From Candidatus Alcyoniella australis (lineage in GTDB: Bacteria; Lernaellota; Lernaellaia; JAVCCG01; Alcyoniellaceae): 15,468 nucleotides of DNA. Where the stretch lies: assembly GCA_030765605.1 (NCBI GenBank), contig JAVCCG010000114.1, positions 1 to 15,468 of the forward strand. Reading direction: 5' to 3'. Positions within the stretch are counted from its first letter, which is position 1. Each line of letters starts with the position of its first letter. The notes beneath the pieces were generated by a model. That model saw only the letters and a list, made by a program, of their open reading frames with translations, did no database searches and was not told where the DNA came from. A program made the translations under genes and the position numbers. Shown piece by piece: positions 10,947-11,538 of the stretch.

Positions 10947-10975
10947 TTGACTAGTCTCCCATTCCGCGCGATAAT
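10947..10975 (+). promoter_or_regulatory. Promoter of the HTH-PilZ gene
   Basis: TTGACT (10947-10952) and GATAAT (10970-10975) each match consensus at 5 of 6 positions with the ideal 17-base spacing. Transcription would start near 10982, just before the AGAGGTGG ribosome binding site (10983-10990). This makes the in-frame GTG at 10987 an unlikely start. Confidence 0.65.
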
Positions 10976-10979
10976 CGCG
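10967..10979. promoter_or_regulatory. Perfect 13-bp palindrome over the -10 box of the HTH-PilZ gene
   Basis: CGCGAT-A-ATCGCG is exactly symmetrical and covers the whole GATAAT -10 element. A protein bound here would occlude RNA polymerase. The obvious candidate is the HTH-PilZ protein encoded 20 bases downstream. Binding is inferred. Confidence 0.5.
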
Positions 10980-10998
10980 GCCAGAGGTGGCAAGGCTG

Positions 10999-11538
10999 AT
11001 GTCCAAGAAAGTGTACACCACGGGCGAGGTCGCCGAGATGCTCGGCGTGAACATCAACACGGTGATTCGTTGGTTCGACCGCGGAGTGCTGCAGGGCTTC
11101 AAACTGCCCACGAGCAACGAGCGGCGGATTCCGATCTCGAGCCTGCGGCGCTTCATGGCGCAAAACATGATCCCCATCGACCTGATGCACGACGACACGC
11201 CCCAACTGCGCATGCACAACCGCGTGCAGTGCAGCGAGCCCGCGAGCCTGTCGGTGATCCAGGGCAACGAGCGCTATCATTACGACGCCACGGTGCTCGA
11301 CATCTCCGAGGGCGGCGTGCGCATCTCGCTTACCGGCAGCGACGGGTTCACCATTCCCACGGTGGAATACACCCTGATGCTCAAAATCGTGGACGGCCCG
11401 CTTAGCGGCGTGGATGCGGTCTGCCGCATCGTGCACATCAAATCGGTCAAGGCCCAGCTCAACATCTCGCTGCAGTTCGCCGACCCGATCCCCCAATCCA
11501 ACCAACGCTGGCAGAACTTCCTGCGGCTGAAGGTCTGA
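10999..11538 (+). CDS. MerR/excisionase-type HTH fused to a PilZ (c-di-GMP) domain
   Basis: The product has 179 residues from the ATG at 10999, which has AGAGGTGG eight bases upstream. Residues 6-52 are a short winged-helix DNA-binding domain of the MerR/BldC/excisionase kind: 'YTTGEVAEMLGVNINTVIRWFD', then the wing residues 'LPTSNERRIPISSLRRFM'. Residues about 70-178 look like PilZ. They keep both c-di-GMP-binding motifs: RxxxR as RMHNR (71-75) and D/NxSxxG as DISEGG (101-106), followed by beta-rich sequence. No receiver or output enzyme is attached, so this is probably a transcription factor whose DNA binding responds to cyclic di-GMP. It diverges from the lipoprotein gene. It is well conserved in form, but targets and ligand response are inferred. 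Confidence 0.85.
   Translation: MSKKVYTTGEVAEMLGVNINTVIRWFDRGVLQGFKLPTSNERRIPISSLRRFMAQNMIPIDLMHDDTPQLRMHNRVQCSEPASLSVIQGNERYHYDATVLDISEGGVRISLTGSDGFTIPTVEYTLMLKIVDGPLSGVDAVCRIVHIKSVKAQLNISLQFADPIPQSNQRWQNFLRLKV

Follow-up and report, generated by a model that had tools for sequence, protein, structure and literature searches.

The stretch of DNA analysed here, referred to as the window, is 15,468 nucleotides long and carries on its forward strand a gene for a 179-residue protein in which an HTH_17 helix-turn-helix domain is joined to a PilZ domain. The gene runs from ATG 10999 to the stop codon ending at 11538 and is single-copy in the host genome. The ATG is preferred to the GTG at 10987 because it aligns with the starts of homologues (MxKKxxTTGEVA), and upstream of it AGAGGTGG (10983..10990, +) is likely to be the ribosome-binding site. 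A sigma-70-type promoter, TTGACT-17-GATAAT (10947..10975, +), places the -35 element TTGACT at 10947-10952 and the -10 element GATAAT at 10970-10975, with 17-bp spacing; the leader would be about 17 nt long if transcription starts near 10982. The pattern TTGACN-(16-18)-NATAAT occurs 24 times genome-wide versus three times for the reversed control, and the promoter is therefore more than a chance match. Its -10 element lies inside CGCGATAATCGCG (10967..10979, +), an odd inverted repeat (CGCGAT-A-ATCGCG) with two perfect 6-bp arms and one unpaired A between them, exactly the 13-bp palindrome over the gene's own -10 box that a first-pass annotation had described. As a separate observation, three of the 24 best consensus promoters of the genome (L080, L090 and L095) precede PilZ genes, the HTH–PilZ gene included, a number that, in a post hoc comparison, lies above expectation for a set of some dozen PilZ genes.

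A divergent lipoprotein-like gene (9834-10907) contains a TCG/GAC repeat (10663-10763) that encodes an Asp-rich tract. Directly downstream, in DNA of lower GC content (~48-53%), is a gene for an NB-ARC–TPR protein (11662-13638) with tandem repeats of ~120 bp in its TPR part (13114-13460). In the final ~1.8 kb at the contig end (13639-15468, ~48-50% GC), no gene or RNA family was recognised. On the minus strand, the cluster at 951-8047 reads as a drug-efflux-type operon with genes for a TetR regulator, an outer-membrane efflux protein, an HlyD-like protein and two each of ABC ATPases and ABC-2 permeases; only the TetR member has a Pfam-based label.

Both domains of the 179-residue protein score above their Pfam gathering cut-offs: HTH_17 (PF12728; residues 5-56, 11011..11166, +) with 39.8 bits against 27, and PilZ (PF07238; residues 69-172, 11203..11514, +) with 38.3 bits against 22.5. 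The PilZ domain retains the two c-di-GMP motifs whose integrity had been claimed, RxxxR as R71MHNR75 and DxSxxG (the [D/N]xSxxG motif) as D101ISEGG106. An AlphaFold2 model built on a 19-sequence alignment has a pLDDT of 87.7 and a pTM of 0.59, so that the domains are reliable and their arrangement is not. The modelled PilZ domain matches the c-di-GMP-bound structures of MapZ (Z 12.7), PP4397 (Z 11.8), YcgR (Z 10.9) and MrkH (5kgo_A, Z 10.5).

Is the DNA-binding domain of the MerR or the BldC type? The annotation had allowed for either, joined to PilZ. The junction and the BldC-like fold stand, and the MerR label fits less well: the domain misses the MerR and MerR_1 cut-offs (18.8 versus 28.2 and 17.8 versus 21.6 bits), and the model lacks the long C-terminal dimerisation helix of the MerR type, having helices only at residues 46-55 and 60-63 before the PilZ strands begin. 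The curated BldC cut-off is also missed (NF033787, NCBIfam HTH_BldC; 21.7 versus 77 bits). The closest HTH structure is that of BldC bound to DNA (6amk_B; Z 7.7, rmsd 1.2 Å over 51 residues, 33% identity), a match whose Z below 8 is not decisive alone and with which the sequence similarity agrees. Since the model shows a winged HTH without the MerR coiled coil and BldC–DNA is the structure nearest to it, 'BldC-type' describes the domain better than 'MerR'. The recognition helix is NINTVIRWFD and the wing LPTSNERRI.

The HTH–PilZ protein is found in 7/7 genomes examined of the host phylum, one of which has two copies, and both domains are present in 19/19 aligned homologues. Within the host phylum R71, R75, S103 and G106 are invariant, and every homologue keeps RxxxR and xSxxG. 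Identity to the window protein is 58-75% in the HTH domain and only ~19-34% in the PilZ domain, and the recognition helix (NINTVI[KR]WFD) and wing (xPxSN[ED]RRI) are nearly invariant. This combination of an almost fixed recognition surface with a divergent PilZ domain suggests that the DNA target is likely to be conserved. In the GTDB phylum to which L053 (labelled Myxococcota) belongs, relatives are sparse, with at least 12 of 282 genomes positive at E<=1e-20 when 12 candidates were scored per genome. The raw sequences of these members contain R-x-F-x-R-K, which fits RxxxR; the automatic alignment slips at this point.

The best reading of these data is that the protein is probably a one-component, c-di-GMP-responsive DNA-binding regulator; we infer both its ligand and its DNA binding. 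What was computed for this reading comprises both domains, both motifs, the folds, the phylum-wide conservation and the sigma-70-type promoter. In the host genome GGDEF domains give four strong matches and one weak match, next to 19 PilZ matches, so c-di-GMP signalling is present. The BldC/MerR-like winged HTH would bind DNA, and its fused PilZ barrel would use RMHNR and DISEGG to bind c-di-GMP, while the short linker that bears RxxxR would close on the bound ligand. Ligand binding would be expected to alter either the assembly of the HTH on DNA or its contact with RNA polymerase, in a direction that we can only infer. The likelihoods given to this reading and to its rivals were assessed one by one and do not have to add up to one.

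Where might such a regulator act? No target gene was identified in the host genome by searching for the palindrome and for shared upstream k-mers. Should the protein act on its own gene, it would more likely do so at an element other than the palindrome. The only k-mer shared upstream of homologues is TTGCAATA, which lies in the -10 region of HTH–PilZ genes at four loci (L003, L006, L007 and L044), that is, upstream of 4/10 phylum-type homologues; at most about 1% of shuffles attain this number, although discovery and counting of the element used the same sequences. In three homologues, from species of which two belong to one family, its spacing to a TTGAC/TTGCC -35 element is constant, and this pairing occurs only five times in eight genomes, three of them at the HTH–PilZ gene. 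The other two matches precede unrelated genes, a GYF-like and a periplasmic metal-binding-like one (labels by eye), and form no pattern of a regulon. The window carries GCGATAAT where the orthologues have TTGCAATA, so autoregulation through such an element at the -10 of three orthologues would require that it has diverged in the host species, and TTGCAATA may instead be ordinary promoter sequence retained by descent. The promoter in the window has a single AATT, and a BldC-type AATTNNNNC direct repeat was not found in it. Autoregulation through an element other than the palindrome is considered unlikely.

Some PilZ domains do not bind ligand. A second rival holds that the protein is a DNA-binding architectural or adaptor protein, with a PilZ domain that has lost its c-di-GMP sensing or that contacts a protein partner instead. 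There are precedents for both halves of this idea, since degenerate PilZ adaptors are known (PMC7288161) and the Xis-like/BldC fold is also found in architectural proteins (PMC5859096). However, the retention of RxxxR and xSxxG in every homologue of the host phylum speaks against a PilZ domain that has lost its ligand, and we regard this alternative as rather improbable.

The palindrome was also put forward as a natural autoregulatory operator. No other of the genome's 24 consensus promoters has a 6-bp-arm palindrome on its -10 element, which makes this one somewhat unusual, yet it is not significant and does not clearly exceed chance. The window contains eight inverted repeats whose arms are at least 6 bp long and whose spacer is 0-1, against a mean of 11.0 in dinucleotide shuffles; 2-3% of 60-bp stretches contain one, or ~10% when spacers of up to 8 are allowed. 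A search of the 4.29-Mb genome for the palindrome elsewhere, which had been suggested as a check, revealed no regulon: the two other exact copies both lie inside long open frames, not at promoters. With at most one mismatch there are 15 forward and 17 reverse sites versus 3 and 6 when the pattern is reversed as a control, counts in which a near-self-complementary pattern scores on both strands, and the sites inspected are mostly within open frames. An Rfam search found nothing.

Because the recognition surface is nearly invariant, a site used for conserved autoregulation should be recognisable near orthologues, and the palindrome is absent there. None of 18 homologue upstream regions contains it with fewer than two mismatches, and the best matches are at shuffle level; one two-mismatch match, upstream of L005 (P 0.007), is unsurprising in 18 trials. 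Classical MerR proteins form symmetric dimers that recognise palindromes, whereas BldC, the closest HTH, assembles head-to-tail on direct repeats of 9 bp (PMC5859096). The operator is thus unsupported, being near chance level, missing upstream of homologues, copied only in open frames and at odds with the binding mode of BldC, and the overlap of the palindrome with the -10 box is probably incidental. That a dimer of the protein sits on this repeat (motif CGCGATNATCGCG), represses its own gene from a site that exactly covers the -10, and has the block released or enforced by c-di-GMP is accordingly very doubtful, the 6-bp arms also being short for two winged HTHs.

A different context for the HTH–PilZ gene is found in Myxococcota. 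At nine Myxococcota-type loci (L045-L053) the gene is flanked by a radical-SAM-like gene and folD, and next come gcvT and, on contigs that extend far enough, gcvH. The same invariant order, radical-SAM-like – HTH-PilZ – folD – gcvT (– gcvH), is also listed for L099-L106; it is absent from the window and from the other members of the host phylum. The Myxococcota order suggests a link between c-di-GMP and one-carbon/glycine metabolism. We tentatively propose that HTH–PilZ proteins might constitute a family, as yet undescribed, of c-di-GMP transcription factors of the one-component type with BldC-like DNA binding, present in every examined genome of a candidate phylum and tied in Myxococcota to a radical-SAM–folD–gcvT–gcvH cluster that would connect c-di-GMP to one-carbon metabolism. 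A literature search found no paper describing the fusion; a catalogue entry is possible, and since Pfam held 221 PilZ architectures by 2020 (PMC7288161), this one may already be among them. The organisms of the host phylum are known from metagenome assemblies only. A compact HTH–PilZ fusion kept phylum-wide would be a simple and testable design for c-di-GMP control of transcription, and it could serve as a c-di-GMP reporter part.

How does the protein compare with known systems? BrlR of Pseudomonas, whose dimerisation is of the MerR type, is a c-di-GMP-binding regulator that shares the MerR-like HTH (5xbt_A, Z 6.3 over the HTH). Unlike the window protein, it lacks a PilZ domain and ends in a GyrI-like C-terminus (PMC12564702). 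MrkH of Klebsiella pneumoniae is a parallel on the PilZ side, as a PilZ protein that activates transcription in a c-di-GMP-dependent manner, but it has no HTH homology and binds DNA with an N-terminal domain of another fold (PMC3161979, PMC12564702).

BldC of Streptomyces has the same HTH fold and also lacks a coiled coil. Its recognition-helix tryptophan corresponds (W31=W25) and so does the arginine pair of the wing (R47/R48 = R42/R43); BldC Arg30 aligns with R24 here and with Lys in most homologues. By contrast, BldC consists of the HTH only, and its wing GGHRR reads SNERR in the window protein, with His46 replaced by Glu41 (mostly Glu/Asp in homologues). Loss of His46 abolishes DNA binding by BldC (PMC5859096). 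The fold is therefore BldC-like while the specificity probably differs; the Glu makes the DNA specificity, or even sequence-specific binding at all, uncertain, and no confident prediction can be made of direct repeats or of a palindrome as the site.

Proteins from Planctomycetota and others (L054-L057, L059 and L061) resemble the N-terminal HTH with 43-56% identity, but carry a receiver-like domain (judged by eye) in the place of PilZ; another (L058) carries a tandem pair of such HTH stretches and lacks a receiver. A 2025 review of c-di-GMP effectors lists DNA binders with HTH domains in addition to MrkH, in which PilZ is combined with a different DNA-binding domain (PMC12564702). PilZ regulators and HTH-based c-di-GMP regulators are both known, and the HTH–PilZ fusion is a variant that joins the two.
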